Position numbers and translations under genes: made by a program
Part shown: positions 1,822-64,000 of the stretch, in pieces
Layout: every line of letters begins with the position of its first letter
Numbering within the stretch: position 1 is the first letter of the stretch
From: Arcobacter lacus
GTDB taxonomy: Bacteria > Campylobacterota > Campylobacteria > Campylobacterales > Arcobacteraceae
Reading direction: 5' to 3'
NCBI RefSeq assembly: GCF_003063295.1
Contig: NZ_MUXF01000001.1
Coordinates: 186,001-250,000, forward strand
DNA: 64,000 nucleotides
Notes under the pieces: model-generated
Told to the model about the DNA's origin: nothing
What the model saw: the letters and a program-made list of their open reading frames with translations, nothing else
Databases searched by the model: none

Positions 1822-4365
1822 TTACTCTTTTTCGCAGTTAATCTCTCTAACTTTATTTAATAAATCAAAAACTATTTCTATATTATCTTCGATATCTTTT
1901 GTAACTGGAAAAATTTCTTTATTTTCAGCTTTTGAAGCATATAAGTCACAAGTTTTTTGAACAAGTTTATGAACATTTTCATGAGCAACTTTTAAATCTT
2001 GCCACTCTTTTGATTTTGCAAATTTTTTGTCTTCATTTGAATCAATCCATTTTCCAAGATTACATTCATGACAAGTTTTAACTGTAAATTTAAAACCTTC
2101 TTTTGCTTGAGAAAAATTCATATTTTTGAAGTTTATATGATCTGATTTTAATTTATTTATATCAATAATCATAGTTGTATCACAAATTCTTTTGTGAGCA
2201 CTTCTATCAAAACTTGTTTGTTTTATTGTATCATCAAGATGGATTACAAGCTGTGAAGTTTTATTTGCCATTTCACTAATAGTTGAAGCTAAATTAGCGT
2301 TTTGTTGTGTTGCTCTATCTAAAGAATTTACCGTATCATTTATTTGTGCCATTGCTAGTTGCTGCTCTTTCGAAGCAGTTGCAACATCTTCAATTAACTT
2401 AATTGTAATATCAATATTCTCATTTAATTCATTATATCCTTCTATCATTTCAGAAGTAATATTTTTTCCTTCATTTGCTTTTAAAGTTGCATTTCCAACT
2501 ATTGTTTTTATTTCATGTGCTGCTTCTGCACTTCTGCTTGCTAAGTTTCGTACTTCTTGTGCAACAACTGCAAATCCTTTTCCTGCTTCACCTGCAGTTG
2601 CTGCTTCTACTGCTGCATTTAAAGAAAGAATATTTGTTTGGAATGCTATATTATCTATAACACCTATTGCTTCATTGATTAGATTTACTTGGTTATTTAT
2701 TTCATCCATTGAAGTTGCTGTTTTTAGAGCTAACTCTTTCCCAACATTTGTTGATTTTGTTACATTTTGTGCATACATAGCCATTTTAGAAGCATTTTCT
2801 GTACTTCTTGTAACAGTTGCTGATATTTCCTCAATTGCAGCAGCTGTTTCTTCTAATGATGCAGCTTGAATATTTGAAGAGTTACTCAATTTTTTTGAAG
2901 CATCAGCTAATTCTGTTGAACTTGTGTTTAATTCTATATTAGATTTTTCAATTAAACACATAATTTCATTGATTGAAGATTGAGTAACTTTTGCTCCACT
3001 TAATAAAGAAGCCATAACACCAGTAACTCCTTGTATATTAGGAATATTATAATCAAATTTCGCATTTGATAAAGCAACTAAAACATCACTTAAAACTAAA
3101 AGATTTTTTTGAGTTGTTGTTATCATATTATTTATTTCAGATATTAAAGAATTAACTCTTTTTGAATTTGCTTTTTGTTTAATAGTGTCATTGAATAATC
3201 CTGCATTTACTTTTTCTATAACAGTTTGTGCTTCTTCTATTACTTTTTGATCTTGAATCAATCCTTTTTCAATAGAATCTAAATAATTATTAAAACTATC
3301 TACTAAGTCTCCAATTTCATCTTTTGAAGTTACTTCAATTTTTGTAGTTTCAGAAGAATTGTTCGATATATTTTCAATTGATTTTTTAAGATTAAAAATT
3401 GGTTTTAAAATATTATTTTTCATATTTAATAATGAAATTACCATAATTAGCACAACAGCGAAAACTAAAATTACTAAAGCTACCCAAATAATGCTAGAAG
3501 CATGTTCAATGGCATTGTTTACATAACTTATTGGCTCGGCAACAAGGGCAATACCAAGTTTTCTACCTTCAAAATCTGTAATATCATTGAAAGTATAAAA
3601 ATATTTGCTAGATTCAAAATGCTTGTCAGTTAATAATTTATTAAAATCTATTTTTTTAGCATCTTCTAAAAAATCTTTATTGATAAATTTTTGAGAAATA
3701 AGATATTTGTCTAATTTATTTTCATCTTTTACATTTTCTACAGATAAAGATAAATCCATAAGTAGTAAAAATGCTCTTTTTTCTTCGTCAAAAGAAATAG
3801 CAACAGAATTCAATCCTTGCATAAACTCTAAAGAACCAACTGGAATTTTATTTGAATCAAAAACAGGAACAACTGCCCTTAAACTAAGCCCTTCTTTTCC
3901 TATTTCAAATCCATTAACCGCAATATGTTCTTTATTTACTTTTACTACACTATTTCTAAAAGAACTTAAATCATCTCCAAATTTATCAACTTGCCAAGAT
4001 CTTAAAAAAGAGTGATTATCTTTTGTATGAAGATGAATTTGAATATTTTTAAAAGGTGTTGACTCTTTCATATTAGAAGATAAGTTTGCTAAAGTACTAA
4101 TGGCTAATTCTCTATTTTTTGTAGCCAAACTCTCTTTTATAGAAGAATCATTTGCAACAGATATTGCATTTGAAATTCCTACTTCTAATTTTGCTTTAAT
4201 TCTTTGTTCACTTAGAGATTTTAAGTTTACAACTACGTCATTATGGACTTCATCAATTAAATCATTTTTATATTTATTCAATATAAAATAACCTATAATT
4301 AAAACTAATAATGTAACTATTAAGTTTATCAAAGTAAATTTTTTACTAATATTCAAGTCCTTCAT
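1822..4365 (-). CDS. Methyl-accepting chemotaxis protein with double-Cache sensor and C-terminal CZB zinc domain
   Basis: An 847-residue chemoreceptor. Helix 1 is at about residues 12-28, followed by a large periplasmic region of dCache_3 type ([17 protein letters not shown]), helix 2 at about 293-313, HAMP, then the signalling domain with the conserved hairpin tip region [20 protein letters not shown]. After it lies a chemoreceptor zinc-binding (CZB) domain: H743, C768 in CHECNLGKW, and H795/H799 in HENVH, matching the H-Cx(L)GxW-HxxxH pattern. CZB domains bind zinc and in other bacteria respond to zinc loss or hypochlorite. The periplasmic ligand is unknown. No chemotaxis genes adjoin it. 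The 280-base region upstream shows no clear promoter to me. Confidence 0.93.
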
Positions 4366-4605
4366 CTCAATCCTTTTATATAAATAGCGTATATTCTATT
4401 TAAAATCATATTAAGAAAAATTAAATATTAAAAAATAAATTATATCATTGGATATAAAACTATTGTTTTTTTCTAATATAAATCGAGTATTTCGAAGTTT
4501 AATAGTATAAAATAAAAAACTACACAATCTAAAAATTTACTTATATTTTTAAAGTATTTTTTTATATTAATTTTGTAAAAAAGTTAAAGATTAAGAAGTT
4601 AATAT

Positions 4606-4636
4606 AATTGAGAGATTATATCTCTCAATTTTTTAT
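4606..4636 (+). terminator. Hairpin with T-run
   Basis: A 10-bp inverted repeat (AATTGAGAGA / TCTCTCAATT, 4606-4615 and 4621-4630) followed on the plus strand by six T. It lies 16 bases past the end of the Pit transporter gene, which is on the minus strand; in that direction it is preceded by an A-run but lacks a good T-run, so it would be a weaker terminator for Pit. Confidence 0.5.
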
Positions 4637-4645
4637 ATAAAATAA

Positions 4646-6130
4646 TCAGATTTTTGTAATATAACTTAAAGCTACGTAAATAGCAGCTCCCATTATAGCT
4701 GTAACAGGTAAGGTAAAAATCCATGCAATTAAAATTGTGTTAATAGTCTTTTTTTGTACTCCACCATCTGGTTCAGCAACCATAGTTCCAGCAACAGCAC
4801 TAGAAACAATATGAGTTGTACTAACAGGAGCATGAGCAAAGTTTGCTAATAAAATAGTTATCATTGCCATTGCTTGAGATACTGTACCTTGCATATGATT
4901 GATTGGTTTAGAGCCAATTTTTTCTCCAATAGTATGCACTACTCTTTTGTAACCTATCATTGTTCCAATTCCTAACATTAAAGCAACTGCAAAAATTACC
5001 CAAAATGGAACATATTCAGTAGAAATAATCATTTGTTTTCTTTGATCTGCTATATAATCAGATTTATCTTTATCTATTAATTTATAAGCTCTTTCAACTT
5101 GTCCAAAGAAGTTATCAGAACATAAAACAGCTGTATGAATTTTCCATCTATCTTCTTTTGAAAGTTCCGAGTATGATTTTAATCCATCTAATTTTTTAGA
5201 AATTTCTAGTGTTGTGTTATACACTTGATTAACATTGCACTCTGCAATTTTATTTTCTATTTTTAGTGCACTAATAAGTAATTTTTCATCTAAAAGTTTT
5301 GTAAGAGTATCATTATTATCTGCATAGAATTTTGCTAAATTTGCAGCGCCATCTCTGGTTTGCATAATTTTGTATTGATGAGCTTCCATATTTAAAGCAT
5401 AATAAGTTGGTAAAATACCAATAAGAATAATCATAATAAGACCAATTCCTTTTTGACCATCATTAGAACCATGAGCAAAACTAACTCCTGCGCCTGTTGC
5501 TATAATTCCAGTTCTCATCCAGAAATTTGGTTTCTTTTTTTTATCTCCAGTTGGTGTTTTATAAAACTTTGGATTTTTAACAAGTTTTCTTGATAGTTTC
5601 ATAATCAAAAAAGCAAAACCAAAACCTAATAAAGGAGAAACAGCTAATGCTGTTAAAATACCATAAACAACTTTCCAATTTACACTTTGAGAGAAAGTAA
5701 ATCCATTCATCATACCAAAAGCGATACTAACACCTACGATTGAACCTATTAAAGAGTGTGAACTAGAAACTGGTAAACCAAAATACCATGTTCCTAAATT
5801 CCAAACAACAGCAGATATAAGTAATGAGAAAACCATTACTAAAGTAGCATTTTGATTTGAAGAAACCATTATATCAAGCGGTAACAAATGCACAATAACA
5901 TAAGCAACACCAATTCCCCCTAAAACAACTCCTATAAAGTTCATAATTCCAGCCATGATAACAGAGTATCCTGCTTTCATAGAATTAGTATATATAATCA
6001 TTGCAACAGCATTTGCAGTATCATGAAAACCATTAATCATCTCATAAAATAATGCGATACTTAATGACAAAAGTAGTAAAACTATTGCAAAGTTATCAAT
6101 ATTATTTAAAGCATCCCACAAGACAGACAT
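4646..6130 (-). CDS. pit: Pit-family inorganic phosphate transporter
   Basis: A 494-residue inner-membrane protein of the PHO4/Pit family, which takes up phosphate (as metal-phosphate) with protons or sodium. The two inverted family repeats are visible: the N-terminal half has GFHDTANAVA and SSSHSLIGSIVG, the C-terminal half has FAHGSNDGQKGIG and NFAHAPVSTTHIVSSAVAG. A roughly 120-residue hydrophilic loop separates them (about residues 240-360), longer than in E. coli PitA-type minimal forms but common in the family. No PhoU-like partner gene adjoins it. The start ATG is preceded by GGAATACATAA. Confidence 0.93.
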   Translation of the reverse strand: MSVLWDALNNIDNFAIVLLLLSLSIALFYEMINGFHDTANAVAMIIYTNSMKAGYSVIMAGIMNFIGVVLGGIGVAYVIVHLLPLDIMVSSNQNATLVMVFSLLISAVVWNLGTWYFGLPVSSSHSLIGSIVGVSIAFGMMNGFTFSQSVNWKVVYGILTALAVSPLLGFGFAFLIMKLSRKLVKNPKFYKTPTGDKKKKPNFWMRTGIIATGAGVSFAHGSNDGQKGIGLIMIILIGILPTYYALNMEAHQYKIMQTRDGAANLAKFYADNNDTLTKLLDEKLLISALKIENKIAECNVNQVYNTTLEISKKLDGLKSYSELSKEDRWKIHTAVLCSDNFFGQVERAYKLIDKDKSDYIADQRKQMIISTEYVPFWVIFAVALMLGIGTMIGYKRVVHTIGEKIGSKPINHMQGTVSQAMAMITILLANFAHAPVSTTHIVSSAVAGTMVAEPDGGVQKKTINTILIAWIFTLPVTAIMGAAIYVALSYITKI

Positions 6131-6198
6131 TTATGTATTCCTTATATTTAGTTTTAGCTAAAAAGTTTGTTATTATATTCTAGTTTTACTTTAATCTA

Positions 6199-7218
6199 TT
6201 ATCCCATTGGATATAAAATCTCTTTTTGTATTGTTTCAATTTTTGATAGAAGTTCATCATCTATTTTAAAAGCAAAAGCTTTTAAGCTATCATCTAGTTG
6301 AGATAATACTCTAGCTCCAATTATAGTTGATGCTACAAAATCGAAGTGTTTTGAATATGAGATAGCTAAAGTTACTGGTGAAACATTATATTCTTTTGCT
6401 AATTCAAAATATTTTGCTGTTGCTTTTAGTGTTTTATCATTTACAAACCTATCAGCCATAAGTCTAACTCTTTTGCTTTCATTGTTTAAATAACTTGTAA
6501 ATCTTGCATCTTGAGGATAAAAGTTTCCATTATATTTTCCACTTAAAACTCCTCCTGCCATCGGAGAATATGGTAAAAGTGAAATATTTTCTTTTCGGCA
6601 AACAGTTGCTAATTCATCAAAAAATCTTGGATTTAATAAAGAAAAATTATTTTGAATTGATTCAAATCTTGATAAATTTTTATTTTTTGAAGTTTCATTT
6701 GCTTTTGTAAGTCCATAAGCACTATCATTTGAAGTTCCTATATATCTTACTTTTCCTTCTTTAACTAATTCATCAAAAGCTTTTAGTGATTCTTCAATAG
6801 GCACGATAGTATCTGGCCAATGCATCTGATAAAGATCTATATAATCAGTTTGAAGTCTTTTTAAACTTCCTTCAATTGCTTTTTTTATATGAAAAGAGTC
6901 AATGGCCGTAAGTCCATGTCTTACAGGTGGAACAAACCAACCAGAAGCTGCACCAGCGACTTTAGTTGCTAAGATGACAGAATCTCTTTGTTTTGTTTTT
7001 AACCATTTTCCTACTATATTTTCAGTAATTCCAACTGTATTTGCTTTGGGAGGTACTGGATAAATCTCAGCTGTATCAAAAAAATTTATTCCATTTTCAT
7101 AAGCTTTATCCATAATATTAAAAGCTTCTTTTTCATCTGTTGTTGAACCAAATGTCATAGTTCCTAAACAAATACTTGAAACTCTTAATCCACTTTTTCC
7201 AATATATCTAAATTCCAT
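6199..7218 (-). CDS. Aldo/keto reductase, Tas-like
   Basis: A 339-residue NADPH-dependent oxidoreductase of TIM-barrel fold. The start SGLRVSSICLGTMTFG is the family signature, the tetrad can be placed as D and Y in FFDTAEIYPVP, K in ILATKV and H in LYQMHWPD, and the C-terminal cofactor site is STIIGARVLSQLDDSL. The IYPVPP stretch places it near E. coli Tas. The substrate cannot be told from sequence. AAAAAGGATT before the ATG is a good ribosome site. The neighbours give no functional clue. Confidence 0.9.
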   Translation of the reverse strand: MEFRYIGKSGLRVSSICLGTMTFGSTTDEKEAFNIMDKAYENGINFFDTAEIYPVPPKANTVGITENIVGKWLKTKQRDSVILATKVAGAASGWFVPPVRHGLTAIDSFHIKKAIEGSLKRLQTDYIDLYQMHWPDTIVPIEESLKAFDELVKEGKVRYIGTSNDSAYGLTKANETSKNKNLSRFESIQNNFSLLNPRFFDELATVCRKENISLLPYSPMAGGVLSGKYNGNFYPQDARFTSYLNNESKRVRLMADRFVNDKTLKATAKYFELAKEYNVSPVTLAISYSKHFDFVASTIIGARVLSQLDDSLKAFAFKIDDELLSKIETIQKEILYPMG

Positions 7219-7258
7219 AATAAATCCTTTTTACATTTTTAAAAAAGCTTATTATACC

Positions 7259-8230
7259 TTATTCCATTATACAAATTTCTTTTTTCTTCATATGTTTTAT
7301 AGTGGCAATTGCAACTAAAAGAACAATTATTGTAGTAATAAAAGTTAAAACATAAGCAAAGATTGCATAAATACCATTTTTTGTTAATTCATACATTAAA
7401 ACAGTACTTAAAGTAACTGCTGCCATTGGAAATGTAAATGCCCACCATGAAATAAAGAATTTTATTTTTACAAAATTTTTATACATAACAAAAACTAAAA
7501 TTGTGAAAAATATTCCTAAATTAAATAAAATTTGAGCAAAAAAGTCTAAACTTCCAGTCAATTTTATGTAAGAGATAAATCCAATAGCAGGAGGCGCTAT
7601 TAAAATAAAAAGTGTTGGCATAAATTTTGGAGCAAATTGATTATGAAAAATAATTCTATTCAAAATAATAGCAAACAAAATTATCCAAAAAAATATTCCT
7701 ATTGAAAAATAAAAATATAATATTGTATTATCAACTATTCCAACACCAGCAATGGGAACTATCAAGTTTCCAACAATAGGAATAAACCAAGCTGGATTTG
7801 AGTGTTGTATTTCAAGATTGTTATTTATCCAAAATCTGATTGTATAGTAAGTAAAAAATATATGGAAAAGTGCACCTATAATAAAAAATATTTCTGAAAT
7901 TTCTATAGAAAAAACTCTAAAATCTATTGATAAAATAAGCATAGAAATAGAAAAAGCTGCAAAAAAATTGACTCTTATTGGGTGAGAAAACTCTTTTTTT
8001 ACTTCTTCTTTAAATCTAATAATTTTTAATATATAAAAAAATAAAACTAAAAAAAACAGACAAACAGTAACAACTAGTATTGCCATAGCAACAGATATTG
8101 GAAAGAAAAAAACCGAAGTCATTCGTTCATAAACTAAAGTTAAACCACCTAATCCCATAATCACTGCAAACATCATTATAGGGAAAAATTGCAATCTATT
8201 TGAAGGAATTGCTTTTATATGCTCTTGCAT
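7259..8230 (-). CDS. TDT/SLAC1-family anion channel or transporter (TehA-like)
   Basis: A 323-residue protein made almost entirely of about ten hydrophobic helices. The N-terminus IPSNRLQFFPIMMFAVIMGLGG and the internal NPAWFIPIVGNLIVPIAG match the TDT (tellurite resistance/dicarboxylate) family that includes TehA and plant SLAC1. Members pass small anions such as nitrate, chloride or dicarboxylates; the substrate here is unknown. The gene ends 40 bases before the aldo/keto reductase and shares its strand. The start is ATG behind AGGATTTAATA. Confidence 0.85.
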   Translation of the reverse strand: MQEHIKAIPSNRLQFFPIMMFAVIMGLGGLTLVYERMTSVFFFPISVAMAILVVTVCLFFLVLFFYILKIIRFKEEVKKEFSHPIRVNFFAAFSISMLILSIDFRVFSIEISEIFFIIGALFHIFFTYYTIRFWINNNLEIQHSNPAWFIPIVGNLIVPIAGVGIVDNTILYFYFSIGIFFWIILFAIILNRIIFHNQFAPKFMPTLFILIAPPAIGFISYIKLTGSLDFFAQILFNLGIFFTILVFVMYKNFVKIKFFISWWAFTFPMAAVTLSTVLMYELTKNGIYAIFAYVLTFITTIIVLLVAIATIKHMKKKEICIME

Positions 8231-8276
8231 TATTAAATCCTAGTAAGATATAATTTATAAAATTTTGGAGTTTATT

Positions 8277-8486
8277 TTGGCAAAAAGTAAAATAATAGTA
8301 GATTTGAGTAAAGAAAATCTTTTTTTTGAAGAAAAAAATCAAACAATAAAACTACTAAATTTTAGATTAGATAATATGAGTTTAGATATAGCAATTTATG
8401 AAAAAGATAAACTTATTAAAAATAGTTCTATGGTTTTTGCACATCTTCCTAAAAAACTCAAAGCAAAATTAAATCCAAAGAAATAA
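8277..8486 (+). CDS. Small hypothetical protein, 69 residues
   Basis: A short lysine-rich protein divergently transcribed from the TDT gene. I chose TTG at 8277 because GGAG at 8267-8270 lies 6 bases before it; the upstream TTG at 8265 overlaps that ribosome site. The product starts AKSKIIVDLSKENLFFEEK and ends in KKLKAKLNPKK, so it has a basic tail. No domain is recognised. Codon use is like the neighbours, and the frame is plausible but unproven. Confidence 0.5.
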   Translation: MAKSKIIVDLSKENLFFEEKNQTIKLLNFRLDNMSLDIAIYEKDKLIKNSSMVFAHLPKKLKAKLNPKK

Positions 8487-8561: not shown

Positions 8562-9851
8562 TTATATTTTAGAACTTAATATTTTTAAAACTTCATCTTT
8601 ATCAGAGAATTCAAATTTTTTATCACCAATTATTTGCGTTGCTTCATCACCTTTTCCAAGAACTAAAACAACACTTTTTTCATTTGCTAAAGATATAGCT
8701 TTTTTCAAAGCTTCTTTTCTATCGATTAAAACTTCAACATTTGATTTATCGTTTATTCCAGCTAAAATATCTTCAATTATCATTTTTGGTTCTTCAAATC
8801 TTGGATTATCGCTAGTTACAATAATATGTTTTGAATATTTTTTTGCAACTTCTCCCATAAGTGGTCGTTTTGCACTATCTCTATTTCCACCTGCACCAAA
8901 AACACAAATAATATCTTTATTTGGGAAGCTTTTTAAAACTTCATCCATTCCATCAGGAGTATGTGCAAAATCCACAATTACGAGTGGATTTAAACTAATT
9001 ATTTCCATTCGTCCACTAACACAAGAAAAGTTTTTTAATGTTTGACAAATATCTTCAAGAGATTTTTGTGTTGTAATATGAACAGCAGCAATACTTGCCA
9101 TAAGATTATAAATATTAAAAATTCCCATCATCATAGAAGTAAAACTATAAGTTTTTTCTTTATAAAAAAACTCAACTTTCATGCCATGTTCAAACTCATA
9201 TTTACTTACTTTATAATCAGAAAGATTTTTTAAAGAATATGTAAAAGCATTTGTAAAATTATATTTCATAACATTATCATCTATATTTACTAGCTTTACA
9301 GACTCATCACTTAAAAACGAATTTTTAACTCTTATATATTCTTCAATAGTTTTATGATAATCAAGATGGTCTCTTGTAATATTTGTATGAATTTTTAAAG
9401 CAAAAGTTAAACCTTCAATTCTATTTTGTTCTATTGCATGAGAGCTTACTTCCATAACAAAAAATTGACAACCATTTTGAATAGCTTTTTGAATATGTAC
9501 AAAATTTCCAAGTTGAATTGGAGTTGTCAAAGAATAATCTTCGACTTGTGTTTCATTTATAAAAAATCCACGAGTTCCTTGAAGTGCAACTTTAAAGCCC
9601 AAACTTAAAAGTATTTTGTAAATTGTTGTTGCAGTTGTTGTTTTACCATTTGTTCCAGTTATTCCAATGATTTTTATAGAACTCATGTCTAAATGATTTT
9701 TTAACTCACTTGAGTTTAAAAACTCAATACAACCATTTTCTTTGGCATTTTGTATATATTTTTCATTATATTTTGAAACAACAAAAATTGAATTTTTATC
9801 AGCTTCACCTGAATTGTCTGTATATGTTTTATCGTTTATGATTAGTTTCAA
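8562..9851 (-). CDS. murE: UDP-N-acetylmuramoyl-L-alanyl-D-glutamate--2,6-diaminopimelate ligase MurE
   Basis: A 429-residue Mur ligase that adds meso-diaminopimelate to the peptidoglycan precursor in the cytoplasm. The ATP loop GITGTNGKTTTA is at about residues 63-74, the central domain has VMEVSSHAIEQ and HTNITRDHLDYH, and the C-terminal domain contains DNPR within TSDNPRFEEP, the motif that selects diaminopimelate. It is shorter than E. coli MurE (495) because the N-terminal uridine domain is reduced, as in other Campylobacterota. The TTG start lies inside the preceding gene (23-base overlap), so translation is probably coupled. The order NifU-domain, unknown, murE matches C. jejuni. Confidence 0.95.
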   Translation of the reverse strand: MKLIINDKTYTDNSGEADKNSIFVVSKYNEKYIQNAKENGCIEFLNSSELKNHLDMSSIKIIGITGTNGKTTTATTIYKILLSLGFKVALQGTRGFFINETQVEDYSLTTPIQLGNFVHIQKAIQNGCQFFVMEVSSHAIEQNRIEGLTFALKIHTNITRDHLDYHKTIEEYIRVKNSFLSDESVKLVNIDDNVMKYNFTNAFTYSLKNLSDYKVSKYEFEHGMKVEFFYKEKTYSFTSMMMGIFNIYNLMASIAAVHITTQKSLEDICQTLKNFSCVSGRMEIISLNPLVIVDFAHTPDGMDEVLKSFPNKDIICVFGAGGNRDSAKRPLMGEVAKKYSKHIIVTSDNPRFEEPKMIIEDILAGINDKSNVEVLIDRKEALKKAISLANEKSVVLVLGKGDEATQIIGDKKFEFSDKDEVLKILSSKI

Positions 9852-58523: not shown

Positions 58524-60383
58524 ATGAGCTCAAATAAAAAAATAACTCTTATAATTTTTACTATGATTTCAATACTTGCTGTTATAATAATAATTCTAAT
58601 AGCACTTGGTTCAAGACACAGTGGATATGATGGAGCAAAAAAAAGAGCTTATTTAACAGCCGAATTAGTTAAAAATTCATTGACAAGCCATATGATAAAT
58701 GGAACAATGCACCAAAGAGACACTTTTTTAAATAGTTTGAATAACCTACAAGGTATCAAAGGACTTTGGGTTGTAAGATCTAAAAGTGTTAGTGAACAGT
58801 TTGGAAATTCTTTATTAGCTACAGAAAAAGCAAGAGATCAAATTGACCAAAATGTATTAAAAACGGGGATAGAAGAAGTTGTTATCAAAGAAAGTTTAGA
58901 AGATGCTACTTTAAGAATAACTATTCCATATACTGCTTCATCTCTTGATAAACCTAACTGTATGTCATGTCACAATGCTCAAGAAGGACAAGTTTTAGGG
59001 GCAATTTCTCTAACTTTTGATATTAAGGACGATAGAGTTTCAAATATTATAGTACTATTAAAAGTTGTCGCTACAATTTCTATATTTTTAATCTTTATTT
59101 TAATTTATTTAAGAAAAAAAATCACTCCATTTACAAGTTCATTTGACTCAATAACGGAAGCTTTAAAAAGAGTGCATGAAGGTGATTATTCAGTTAGAGT
59201 TAAAGAAGGTGTTCTAAAAGAAGATAAAGAAGCTTCTATTTGGTTAAATGAACTTATAGAAAAACTTGAAACAGTTTTAACAGGTATTGAAAAAAATCTT
59301 ACTTCATTTGTGCATAATAGAGCTACGATTTTTAGTAATGACAAACTTCTAACAGCAAAAGAGATTATTGAAGATATTACTGAAATTTATAACTATAAAA
59401 AAACTATTGAAACTGACTTAACAAAAGATGATATTTTTTATAGATTAATTCAAGTTTTAAAAAATAAATTAAATATTGAATCTTTTTATATTTTTGAAAC
59501 TGATTTAATAAAAGATGAAAGAAAAACAATTTATCCTATAAAAGAGACTGAAAAACCTTGTTGTAGTATTTCAAAAGGTATAAAATATGGTTGTAGAGCA
59601 GAAAGAACAAACACTATTGTTTCTTCAGAAAATTTTCCTGAAATTTGTAGAATTGCAAAATGTTCAGGTGATATAAACCATATTTGTATTCCATTTTTAA
59701 TAAATGAACAAAAAAATATTGTTATACATATAGTTTGTAAAGATAAAGAAAGTTTACAAAATACTAAATATCAAATAGGAATAATCAAAAAATATTTAGA
59801 AGAGACAAAACCTATTTTAGAAAGTAAACTTTTAATGGATGCATTAAGAGAAAAGAATTTAGTAGATGGTTTAACAGGACTTTATAATCGTAGATATTTA
59901 GATGAATTTATCGATAAAAAGTTACCTCATGAATTGCAAAATGGTACAAAATTTGCAATTATGTTCTTAGATATTGATTACTTTAAAATGATAAATGATA
60001 CTTATGGACATGATGCAGGAGATGCCATACTACAAAAATTATCAGATACAATGAAAGAATCTATTTCTGAAAATGAGTTTATTGTTAGATTTGGTGGTGA
60101 AGAGTTCTTAATTATTATGAAAAATCCAACTGAAGTTACAGCAAAAGAACTTGCTGCAAAAATAAATGAAGAGTTTGCAAAACTTGTGTTTAATTACAAT
60201 GGTCAAGCATTTAGTAAAACTGTAAGTATCGGTTATTCTTTCTTCCCAGATGATGCTGATCAAATTTGGAAATGTATAAAATATGCAGATATATCTTTAT
60301 ATCAAGCGAAAGAAACGGGTAGAAATAAAATAGTAAGATTCCAAAAAGAGTTCTTAAAAAGTGCAGATAAAAAGAGTTATTAA
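58524..60383 (+). CDS. Diguanylate cyclase with periplasmic haem-c sensor and Cys-rich cytoplasmic domain
   Basis: A 619-residue signalling enzyme. Helix 1 about 7-28, a periplasmic domain with CMSCH at 146-150 (CxxCH haem-c attachment; DUF3365/Tll0287-like), helix 2 about 174-196, a HAMP-like linker, a GAF-like domain at roughly 305-430 holding six cysteines (CCSIS, GCRAE, ICRIAKC, HICIP), and a C-terminal GGDEF domain with GGEEF at 524-528. The RxxD inhibitory site before GGEEF is absent. It makes c-di-GMP, probably in response to redox or gas ligands (inference). It converges with qhpG. Confidence 0.9.
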   Translation: MSSNKKITLIIFTMISILAVIIIILIALGSRHSGYDGAKKRAYLTAELVKNSLTSHMINGTMHQRDTFLNSLNNLQGIKGLWVVRSKSVSEQFGNSLLATEKARDQIDQNVLKTGIEEVVIKESLEDATLRITIPYTASSLDKPNCMSCHNAQEGQVLGAISLTFDIKDDRVSNIIVLLKVVATISIFLIFILIYLRKKITPFTSSFDSITEALKRVHEGDYSVRVKEGVLKEDKEASIWLNELIEKLETVLTGIEKNLTSFVHNRATIFSNDKLLTAKEIIEDITEIYNYKKTIETDLTKDDIFYRLIQVLKNKLNIESFYIFETDLIKDERKTIYPIKETEKPCCSISKGIKYGCRAERTNTIVSSENFPEICRIAKCSGDINHICIPFLINEQKNIVIHIVCKDKESLQNTKYQIGIIKKYLEETKPILESKLLMDALREKNLVDGLTGLYNRRYLDEFIDKKLPHELQNGTKFAIMFLDIDYFKMINDTYGHDAGDAILQKLSDTMKESISENEFIVRFGGEEFLIIMKNPTEVTAKELAAKINEEFAKLVFNYNGQAFSKTVSIGYSFFPDDADQIWKCIKYADISLYQAKETGRNKIVRFQKEFLKSADKKSY

Positions 60384-60396
60384 TACTCTTTTTATC
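60366..60396. terminator. Hairpin shared by convergent gene ends
   Basis: GATAAAAAGAGT (60366-60377) and its complement (60385-60396) span the stops of the diguanylate cyclase and the flavoprotein gene, giving a bidirectional terminator that overlaps both coding ends. Confidence 0.65.
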
Positions 60397-61738
60397 CTAA
60401 AACTTCTTCTTTTATACACCAATTTTTTAAAGAATTAGATACTTGAGATGAAATATTTTTTTCTTTACAAAAAACATCAAAATATTCCAAAGATTTTTCA
60501 AAGTTATTTTCTAAACAATATTTAGCTAAATCTATAATTTCAATATTTCCAAAATAGCAAGCACCAAAAGGATTATCTTTTGTAATTACTACCTCACTTT
60601 CCTTTACAAAACCATCTTTTACAACTGCTTTTTTTTCTATTCTTGGAAGTTTTTTTTCTATTCTTGGAAGTTTTTTTTCTAATTCATTCTTATCTTGAGG
60701 CCAAGTTTGTCTTTTTTGCCAAAAATTTGTATCAAACCTATTTTCAAGTAGATAAAACTCTTTTCCAACTTTTGTAAATTTATCAAATATAAACTCTACC
60801 CTACTTTTATAAAAATCAATTGCAACTTTTTGTTCATTTTCATTTTTGTTTAAAATTGTGTTTATTACATATGGAGCGATACTTGACATACTCATAGCTT
60901 GAAAAGCGCCATTTCCAGAAAGTGGGTCCACACTAGATGCACTATCTCCTATTAACATCATTTTACTATTTATTATCTCTTTATGGATTTTACAAAATGA
61001 ATCTCTTTTAACTAATTTTCCAATAACTTTATAGTTATTTAAACTCCAAAGTTTTATATTTTGCTCTTTTAGAATTTTTAACATATCTTCAAAACTAGTA
61101 ACTTTATTAGCTAATTCTTCATCACAAGAAAATTGGATATAACCTCTTTTTTCTCCAACATAAGCTTGCCAAATCCAACCATCTTTTACAGAATCAATTG
61201 AAGTTTTATTCTCTTTTACATTTTCAAGTTCTAGTTCTTGTAGAAGTGAATAACTTTTTGGACCAGTTATATATTCATCTTTAAAAGGGGTAAATCTTCC
61301 CCTTGCATCAACTATAAAATCAGCAATTAATTCATATTTATCTTCATCTATTTTATAATTAACTTTAGGTTTTAATTCACTTGTATCAATAGAACCAACA
61401 ACTTTTGCTTCAATTATTTTTATATCATTTTCACCAACATCTTTTAATAATGCTTCATCTAAATCTCTTCTATTTACAACATATTCATAATTTACTTTAT
61501 CTGCTTTTGCTGCCCAATTTGAGTTTCGTAAAGATTGATCAACTAAAAGTTTTGAAGCTTTTATACAACCTAATGAGATAAGTCCCTCTTTTGTTTTTTG
61601 ACTAAATCCTTCATAAGCAGTAAATGGTCTTTTTTTGTAAATAACAGTTACATCAAAACCTAATTTTTTAAGTCCAATAGCAGTAGAACTACCTGCAATT
61701 CCTGCACCTAAAATCAATATTTTTTCATTTTGGTTCAT
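60392..61738 (-). CDS. qhpG: FAD-dependent monooxygenase, probable QhpG (CTQ maturation)
   Basis: A 448-residue flavoprotein of the halogenase/PHBH-like fold. FAD loop ILGAGIAGSSTAIGL at the N-terminus and GDSASSVDPLSGNGAFQAM in the middle. Beside a subtilase and an ABC exporter it fits QhpG, which hydroxylates the tryptophan that becomes cysteine tryptophylquinone in quinohemoprotein amine dehydrogenase. ATG at 61736-61738 lies inside the subtilase gene end (14-base overlap). Near the C-terminus is a tandem 7-residue repeat (KLPRIEK twice) from a 21-base DNA repeat with eight-base homopolymers. Confidence 0.65.
   Translation of the reverse strand: MNQNEKILILGAGIAGSSTAIGLKKLGFDVTVIYKKRPFTAYEGFSQKTKEGLISLGCIKASKLLVDQSLRNSNWAAKADKVNYEYVVNRRDLDEALLKDVGENDIKIIEAKVVGSIDTSELKPKVNYKIDEDKYELIADFIVDARGRFTPFKDEYITGPKSYSLLQELELENVKENKTSIDSVKDGWIWQAYVGEKRGYIQFSCDEELANKVTSFEDMLKILKEQNIKLWSLNNYKVIGKLVKRDSFCKIHKEIINSKMMLIGDSASSVDPLSGNGAFQAMSMSSIAPYVINTILNKNENEQKVAIDFYKSRVEFIFDKFTKVGKEFYLLENRFDTNFWQKRQTWPQDKNELEKKLPRIEKKLPRIEKKAVVKDGFVKESEVVITKDNPFGACYFGNIEIIDLAKYCLENNFEKSLEYFDVFCKEKNISSQVSNSLKNWCIKEEVLG
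60629..60680. repeat. 21-bp tandem repeat inside the flavoprotein gene
   Basis: Two perfect 21-base units (60629-60649, 60650-60670) and a 10-base partial third, each opening with eight T on this strand. Because 21 is a multiple of three, unit gain or loss keeps frame; slippage in the homopolymers would break it. Confidence 0.9.
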
Positions 61739-62363
61739 TGATAATCCTTTTAGAAAACTCTTCAATTATTTCCTCTTTTTTAAAACCTTTTTTTAAATAG
61801 CTACAAAACTCTTTTGTAAACTTTGCAACAGCCACACTTGAACCTGCCACATTTTTTACACTAGAAAAGGGATTTGCTCCAAAAAATAGTTTTTCTTTAT
61901 CTAAAGCTACAACTTTATCATCTTTACACATGCCTTCTGATGTTACTTTTATAACTCCATTATATGAAGCTGGATAGACAAAATCTTCTCCTCGTCTAGG
62001 AAATGATGAAACTATAACTACACCTTTATTTATAAGTTCATTCACTAAATTTTCTATCTCTTTATAGTTTGTTTTTAAACCTAAACTCATACTAATTACA
62101 TCAACTTTTTTATCTTTTAAATAGTTTAATGCTCCAAAAATATGATTTGGAGTAGTTGATAAATTTTCATTAAATACTTGAATGTCATAAATATTTGTGT
62201 TTTCATCTTTTATGATGTTTCCAATAACATTTCCATGTTCAAAATTTATATTATTTTGTTTTTTAATTTTTATTCTATTGTTTTCTATATGTATGGCAAT
62301 TTTTTCATAAGTTTCAAAACTACAACCACTATCAATAATTGCTACATAAATCTCTTTAGACAT
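61725..62363 (-). CDS. qhpE: Small subtilisin-like protease, probable QhpE
   Basis: A 212-residue S8 protease without signal peptide, so cytoplasmic. The triad can be placed at D11 (VAIIDSGC), H43 (FEHGNVIGN) and S176 (VAGSSVAVAKF). The usual AGN of the oxyanion hole reads SSF. QhpE, of this size, removes the leader peptide of the small gamma subunit (QhpC) in quinohemoprotein amine dehydrogenase maturation. It overlaps the ABC gene by 8 bases and the flavoprotein gene by 14, so the three are translationally coupled. Confidence 0.68.
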   Translation of the reverse strand: MSKEIYVAIIDSGCSFETYEKIAIHIENNRIKIKKQNNINFEHGNVIGNIIKDENTNIYDIQVFNENLSTTPNHIFGALNYLKDKKVDVISMSLGLKTNYKEIENLVNELINKGVVIVSSFPRRGEDFVYPASYNGVIKVTSEGMCKDDKVVALDKEKLFFGANPFSSVKNVAGSSVAVAKFTKEFCSYLKKGFKKEEIIEEFSKRIINEPK

Positions 62364-63993
62364 TTTTATACTCTTTTAAATTTTTATCTTCAAGTAGATA
62401 AACCTCATCAAAATTATTTAACATATTTAGATGATGAGTTATTGCAATAATAGTTGAATCTGGGAAAATTTTTGAAATATTTTCATAAAACCAAAAAGTA
62501 TCTTTTTCATCAATAGAAGAGGTAAATTCATCTAAAATGATAATTTTTGGATTTAATAAAATTATTCTTGAAAGAGCTATTCTTTGTTTTTGACCACCAG
62601 ATAAATTTGCTCCAGATTCAAAAATATTTGTATCTAATCCATTTTCAAGAGAATTGTACCAATCAAACATACCAGTTTTTTTCAAAGAATTTATCAATTC
62701 TTCATCTTTTGCTTTTTCATTTGCTAAAAGAAGATTTCCTCTTAAACTGTCATCAAATATAATTGGAGTTTGTTCAAGTTTTACCAAATATTTTGAAAAG
62801 TTTATAAAATCTTTTTTCCCTATTTCTTCATTTCCAATAAATATATTTCCATTTTGAGCTTTTAGAAATCCACAAAGTAAATCTCCAAATGTACTTTTTC
62901 CTGCACCATTTTTTCCAATAATCGCAATTTTACTTTTCTCTTTTATATGAAGATTTAATTTTTCAAATATTTTATTATTAGCATAAGAAAAATCTAAATC
63001 TTTTACTACAATCTCAAAATTTGTACTTTTAAAAGTTTCAGTTTTTTCATCTTTTGGTAAAATTTCTAAAACTCTATTTAAACTAACTTTCATTTTTGGA
63101 AGATTATTTACAACTCCTAAGATTGTATGAACTGGTGCTAGAATCATCGTAAAATATGTCAAAAATGCAAAAAGTTCACCAACTTTTAGCTCACCTTGAA
63201 TAGTTAAGTATCCACCATATGCTATGATTATTGTTTTTCCAAGAAGTGAAATAAATGCTGGAATTTGTGAAAAGATTAGATTTATCTTTTTATTTTTTAT
63301 TACAACTTTTTTATAATCATCTTGAATAAAATCTAGCTTTTCTAAAGTTTGTTTTTTTGCTCCAAGATTTTTTAGAACTAATAAATATCTAAAATTTTCA
63401 ATAAAAAATTTTCCAATATTTGAAGTTGATTCTCTCATAGTTTTTGTACTTTTTTGAACATGAGGATAAAGTGGTTTTAAACAAATAAACTCAATTGGCA
63501 AAAATATAAAAATAAGTATCATTAGTTTTATATTATACGAATATATAATACAAGAGATAAATACAAGACTAATGATAGTTGAAAATAGTGAGAAAACACT
63601 ATCAGTATAAAATCTTTGAAGTTCACTAATATCACCTTGAACTCTTGACATCAAATCAGCAGAGTGATATTTGTTTAAAAAAGTTTTATCATGTAAAAAT
63701 AGTCTATTAAAGACAATTCTTCTAAACTCAAACAAAATATTCATAGAGTTTTTTGTGTAATAAATCTCATTTATATAACTTATTATCATAACAAAAACAG
63801 TAAGAAAAAATGAGATAGAAACTAAAAAAATAAGCTGATTTATATTTGAAGCTAGAATAGCATTATCAATTATGTGTTGCATGATATATGGTTGAATCGC
63901 TCCACCAAGAGAGACAAGAATAGAAAATAAAAAAATGACAAAAAATCCTCTCTTATTTTTTCGTAAGAGAGGATATATAATACTTTTAAACAT
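62356..63993 (-). CDS. qhpF: ABC exporter (half transporter), probable QhpF
   Basis: A 545-residue protein with six helices (residues about 18-290) fused to an ATPase: Walker A GKNGAGKST at 360-368, signature LSGGQKQ from 464, Walker B IIILDE at 484-489, H-loop H520. QhpF moves the matured gamma subunit to the periplasm. It is the first visible gene of the operon; the catalytic and radical-SAM genes expected of a qhp cluster would lie upstream, beyond 64000. The ATG is only 7 bases from the window edge, so its ribosome site cannot be judged. Confidence 0.7.
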   Translation of the reverse strand: MFKSIIYPLLRKNKRGFFVIFLFSILVSLGGAIQPYIMQHIIDNAILASNINQLIFLVSISFFLTVFVMIISYINEIYYTKNSMNILFEFRRIVFNRLFLHDKTFLNKYHSADLMSRVQGDISELQRFYTDSVFSLFSTIISLVFISCIIYSYNIKLMILIFIFLPIEFICLKPLYPHVQKSTKTMRESTSNIGKFFIENFRYLLVLKNLGAKKQTLEKLDFIQDDYKKVVIKNKKINLIFSQIPAFISLLGKTIIIAYGGYLTIQGELKVGELFAFLTYFTMILAPVHTILGVVNNLPKMKVSLNRVLEILPKDEKTETFKSTNFEIVVKDLDFSYANNKIFEKLNLHIKEKSKIAIIGKNGAGKSTFGDLLCGFLKAQNGNIFIGNEEIGKKDFINFSKYLVKLEQTPIIFDDSLRGNLLLANEKAKDEELINSLKKTGMFDWYNSLENGLDTNIFESGANLSGGQKQRIALSRIILLNPKIIILDEFTSSIDEKDTFWFYENISKIFPDSTIIAITHHLNMLNNFDEVYLLEDKNLKEYKNV

Positions 63994-64000
63994 ACTAAAA

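Follow-up and report, generated by a model that had tools for sequence, protein, structure and literature searches.

A quinohemoprotein amine dehydrogenase operon in an Aliarcobacter-group bacterium and its possible link to nitrogen limitation

At the 3' end of the window analysed here (the whole stretch of 64,000 nucleotides, positions 186001-250000 of contig C1 of a 2.2 Mb genome) three open reading frames follow each other on the minus strand with successive overlaps of 8-41 bases. They raise the question whether they belong to the maturation machinery of a quinohemoprotein amine dehydrogenase (QHNDH) whose other genes lie past the end of the window and, if so, what purpose such an enzyme would serve. 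The initial annotation had reported an exporter, a 212-residue subtilase and a flavoprotein overlapping on one strand, and their coordinates are as given there:

60392-61765, minus strand: qhpG, flavoprotein monooxygenase of 457 aa, predicted peptidyl-Trp dihydroxylase
61725-62363, minus strand: qhpE, cytoplasmic subtilisin-like leader peptidase of 212 aa
62356-63993, minus strand: qhpF, ABC exporter of 545 aa, fused permease-ATPase

The 41-base overlap results from a TTG start of the flavoprotein frame. An in-frame ATG (MNQNEK...) reduces it to about 14 bases, and this ATG near 61738 is probably the true start of qhpG. The three genes had been read as qhpF-E-G and a profile search had been proposed. 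This search secured two of the names: QhpG matched the NCBIfam equivalog NF049967 (401 bits, cut-off 240) and QhpE matched NF049966 (199 bits, cut-off 165). The best solved relative of QhpG is a peptidyl tryptophan dihydroxylase (PDB 7ctq, E 4.6e-59), and in an alignment with 15 relatives QhpE retains the Asp (IDSG), His (HGN) and Ser (GSS) positions. The third gene encodes a general ABC exporter with the domains PF00664 and PF00005. It is without an equivalog model of its own, matched general exporter families below their cut-offs, and is named qhpF by position only, as the gene that stands between qhpB and qhpE in clusters of the Arcobacteraceae.

The DNA past the window is covered by the locus L009 (window position = L009 position + 60000), which contains the following features in L009 coordinates:

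4008-5141, minus strand: qhpB, beta subunit (TIGR03907, 343 bits, cut-off 223)
5159-5479, minus strand: qhpC, cysteine-rich gamma subunit (NF037958, 163 bits, cut-off 50)
5490-6863, minus strand: qhpD, radical-SAM maturase (TIGR03906, 578 bits, cut-off 453)
6873-8480, minus strand: qhpA, dihaem alpha subunit (TIGR03908, 557 bits, cut-off 274)
8562-8581: proposed QhpR block
8586-8602: palindrome TGTATATAAAATATACA
8662-9474, plus strand: qhpR-like gene for an AraC-type regulator, divergent

A radical-SAM gene, a cysteine-rich gamma subunit and dihaem alpha and beta subunits had been predicted upstream of position 64000. Reading on beyond that position revealed all four, on the same strand as qhpF, without real gaps and above their equivalog cut-offs, followed by the divergent AraC-type gene. 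What was to count against the prediction, a lack of radical-SAM or haem genes or a flanking RiPP precursor, did not turn up: haem and radical-SAM genes are there. The locus is a complete QHNDH operon, qhpADCBFEG with divergent qhpR, of an Aliarcobacter-group bacterium, and six of its products (QhpA, B, C, D, E and G) exceed the cut-offs of their equivalog models. The alignment of QhpC with the mature gamma chains 1jmx_G and 1jju_C begins at its residue 29 and covers the whole mature length, which leaves the expected 28-residue leader. The six thioether positions and the Cys and Trp of the cysteine tryptophylquinone (CTQ) are identical to those of 1jmx/1jju; in the residue numbering of 1JJU and 1JMX, the cross-links C7/E16, C27/D33 and C41/D49 are kept, as is C37/W43. 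QhpA matches PF09098, possesses two haem c sites (CIACH and CVRCH) and probably starts at a TTG behind an AGGAG which is conserved here and in five related promoters. QhpD keeps its CxxxCxxC motif (CNLSCTYC) and its SPASM cysteines.

The operon almost certainly makes a functional QHNDH. The periplasmic alpha-beta-gamma enzyme would convert primary amines to aldehyde and ammonium, and the electrons would pass via the two haems to a c-type respiratory chain. The combination of a radical-SAM enzyme, a peptidase, an ABC exporter and a small Cys-rich peptide might also suggest the production of a secreted thioether-bridged RiPP, but this is rejected as extremely improbable because the dihaem alpha and the beta subunits are encoded in the same operon, and it sits badly with a gamma peptide that aligns so completely with known gamma chains.

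The genes flanking the operon deserve a brief mention. Adjoining qhpG, at 58524-60383 of the window, lies a gene for a 619-aa membrane protein in which only a GGDEF domain was matched in Pfam. Its probable periplasmic part contains a CxxCH motif (CMSCH), which suggests a diguanylate cyclase with a haem-c sensor. On the other side, past the window, a 71-aa frame (L009:9485-9700) matched only the GNVR end of Wzz/Wzc-type chain-length proteins and looks like a gene remnant. Further on (L009:10319-13297) is a gene for a 992-aa MutS with an HNH-like stretch at its C-terminus (DUF968/HNHc_6, below cut-off); it resembles the MutS7 type of Campylobacterota and octocoral mitochondria.

Within the phylum, qhp genes were seen only inside the Arcobacteraceae. 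They were found by protein in 12 of 104 family genomes, while PF08992 was present in 7 of 397 phylum genomes, all seven of them in the same family. A QhpD search of a genome-contig collection gave a single further record, from an Aliarcobacter MAG. The twelve genomes contain at least 14 qhpADCB sets which fall into two groups: a QhpD tree showed clades of nine and six sets (types 1 and 2), apart from four proteobacterial outgroup sequences. In the relative G029 a complete type-1 cluster has, immediately upstream, a type-2 RADCB unit that lacks F, E and G; in G010 such a unit occupies a distant locus. The upstream unit of G020 belongs by its QhpD to a divergent branch of type 1. G010, G020 and G029 have one qhpE and one qhpG each. 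In G011, type-2 RADCB is joined to an F-E-G module 80-87% identical to that of the window, and its QhpF groups in the tree with that of G003, a genome whose operon has the gene order of the window operon and 82-100% protein identity to it. The simplest reading of these arrangements is that each QhpD pairs with its own QhpC while QhpF, E and G may serve either gamma subunit. The pattern suggests that the QhpD step is substrate-specific and that the QhpE, F and G steps are general.

The type-1 cluster of G010 (L012:3983-5686) has a frameshifted qhpD and a qhpC in which the CTQ Trp is replaced by Cys (CWC for CWW), whereas qhpF, qhpE and qhpG are open. It appears to be a natural loss of one QHNDH with retention of the general maturation genes, unless the defects are sequencing errors. 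By analogy, the operon described here could be a decayed and non-functional remnant, but all seven of its genes are open and every catalytic residue checked is kept, so that this is very improbable. A separate observation concerns the qhpD-qhpC segment (L009:4900-7200, window frame 64900-67200). Compared with L011, it has 97-98% DNA identity to the G003 copy, with 91-93% identity at four-fold sites and a QhpD protein that is 100% identical; qhpF and qhpE reach about 86% DNA identity and 56-72% at four-fold sites (qhpG was left out of this comparison owing to an indel). The segment looks like a recent exchange of a maturase-substrate pair between species.

How the operon is controlled can be approached from the region between qhpR and qhpA. 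When six type-1 clusters were aligned, conservation was seen at TGTATA-N5-TATACA and at a second block, TGTCGTTTTnnTACTATACA. In most cases the start of this TGTCG block is 21 bp beyond that of the palindrome. The 17-bp palindrome is present in exact form in 11 qhp units of both types, and with one or two mismatches only in four others (the upstream units of G020 and G029, G079 and G058). The genome has four exact copies, as compared with none for the reversed control: upstream of qhpA, of gltB and of glnA, and between the genes for a urea-type ABC binding protein and a DUF808 protein. One-mismatch palindromes were as frequent in this genome as their reversed controls (27 each) and are therefore no evidence on their own. 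Family-wide, 435 palindromes were found against 109 controls. The neighbours of the sites examined in relatives were amtB (12), qhpA (11), gltB (11), glnA (10) and gdhA (3), besides a narK-like nitrate-transporter gene, porins and a few others. Porins and ribose-phosphate pyrophosphokinase-like genes are not obviously linked to nitrogen; in several genomes (L100, L078, L064, L046) the palindrome precedes an Opr-family porin gene that is divergent from a ribose-phosphate pyrophosphokinase-like gene.

Centre to centre, 42.5 or 43.5 bp separate the palindrome from the -10 box in 11 of 12 amtB, 8 of 8 gltB and 2 of 3 gdhA promoters. The same spacing is seen at glnA, whose -10 box is weak, where a TACAAT or TAGAAT box is picked; a scan for the best hexamer chose other -10 positions in several cases. 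All 11 qhpA promoters have a longer spacing, 52.5 or 53.5 bp, which adds one helical turn. An activator that contacts one face of the helix would require such a fixed phase, and the constant distance of the -10 box points to sigma-70. Control of qhpA by sigma-54 was considered and not adopted, since no -24/-12 element was apparent by eye.

We consider it probable that qhp belongs to a nitrogen-limitation regulon. A site common to qhpA and to core ammonium-assimilation and nitrogen genes (glnA, gltB, amtB, gdhA, narK-like, urea-type binding protein) suggests nitrogen scavenging rather than carbon supply, and the operon would then mainly win ammonium from amines. Alternatively, the same enzyme might provide carbon and energy or detoxify amines from the host or the environment, with QhpR acting alone and the palindrome belonging to another regulator or being incidental. 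The Paracoccus/Pseudomonas operon is amine-induced (PMC7876137). Two full-length aldehyde dehydrogenases are encoded in the genome, and such genes are also found in or near several proteobacterial qhp loci. This alternative has to contend with the palindrome common to glnA, gltB, amtB and gdhA at fixed helical phase, and we regard it as quite unlikely. M9 medium in its standard recipe contains ammonium, and a nitrogen-controlled operon should therefore be silent in an M9-based carbon test such as that published for A. butzleri in 2007. That paper found that A. butzleri failed to grow in M9 when its only carbon source was n-butylamine, benzylamine or methylamine (PMC2147049), which again speaks against use for carbon. 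If the nitrogen reading is true, amines should serve as a nitrogen source when ammonium is absent.

Which protein might read the palindrome? A 250-aa protein whose gene adjoins glnD, and has a palindrome of its own in several genomes, is a candidate. The C-terminal end was matched to the DNA-binding domain of NtrC (residues 183-244, E 4e-8) and also to Fis, and inspection of the sequence found neither a receiver domain nor a GAFTGA loop. With only 250 aa, a weak AAA match at the N-terminus and an NtrC-like C-terminal domain, it is better called NtrC-like than NtrC. In the present genome its gene (contig C3, from 100446) overlaps glnD and is preceded by a palindrome with one mismatch. All 17 genus members that have at least two palindromes encode the protein, as against 0 of the 14 with zero or one, a co-occurrence which is strong but not proof, as these 31 genomes are related and represent fewer independent events. 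Moreover, glnD or other nitrogen genes may have been lost together with the sites.

The NtrC-like protein is our favoured reader, at somewhat better than even odds. The palindrome might instead be a real nitrogen site that is read by another regulator, for example of the CRP/FNR or LysR type, and the co-occurrence could reflect the joint loss of the entire GlnD branch. This we think unlikely, as both the DNA-binding domain of the NtrC-like protein and the 17-bp layout of the site fit NtrC. A CRP-type reader in particular is not favoured because HTH_Crp_2 proteins occur whether or not a genome has the sites; only one was detected here. If the NtrC-like protein is the reader, nitrogen limitation would be signalled via GlnD/GlnK to this short activator at TGTATA-N5-TATACA, and an amine signal would reach QhpR at the TGTCG block. 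On this reading qhp transcription would respond to both. A nitrogen regulon with an NtrC-like reader would also explain why amines fail as a carbon source.

Taken as a whole, the locus is best explained as a QHNDH operon under nitrogen and amine control that would serve mainly to gain ammonium from amines (probability roughly 0.78). The more detailed proposal, an undescribed GAFTGA-less NtrC-like activator at sigma-70 promoters, recruitment of qhp for nitrogen, and two QHNDH types with cognate QhpD that share QhpF-E-G, is in our judgement only marginally favoured. No description of a nitrogen control site or regulator for Arcobacteraceae was found in the literature searched; a candidate for each is now available.

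The initial annotation knew of no studied example in Campylobacterota, which needs correction. The same locus in another species, A. butzleri RM4018 (AB0466/AB0467), was described with its conserved motifs in the 2007 genome paper (PMC2147049), and qPCR assays for A. butzleri have targeted the gamma-subunit gene (PMC6403187). As a qhp cluster the locus is unremarkable and has been seen in this group before. The new part is the palindrome that its promoter has in common with core ammonium-assimilation genes, and the link to nitrogen which this suggests; relative to the available text of the A. butzleri paper, the palindrome, the proposed nitrogen regulon and the shared F-E-G arrangement are new.

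For Paracoccus denitrificans and Pseudomonas putida it has been described what QhpD, E, F and G do and that amines induce the operon (PMC7876137); the clusters of these two have the same eight gene types, leader length, cross-link and CTQ residues. As here, an AraC-type regulator is present in several proteobacterial clusters. With most of the plasmid-borne copies from Proteobacteria, QhpD shares about 42-45% identity. The order A-D-C-B-F-E-G with divergent R prevails in most Arcobacteraceae clusters, whereas proteobacterial records place F, E and G variously. Unlike the P. denitrificans/P. putida operon, the Arcobacteraceae qhp promoter has a palindrome of the nitrogen type. In this respect the closest parallel is enteric NtrC, whose box in E. 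coli is a 17-bp palindrome, TGCACCAnnnTGGTGCA (PMC8743547; also PMC4987338). The Arcobacteraceae system shares with it a 17-bp palindromic site, nitrogen-assimilation targets and an NtrC-like DNA-binding domain. It differs in the half-site (TGTATA instead of TGCACC), in a protein of 250 aa that by inspection lacks the receiver and the GAFTGA loop, and in target promoters with sigma-70-type -10 boxes.
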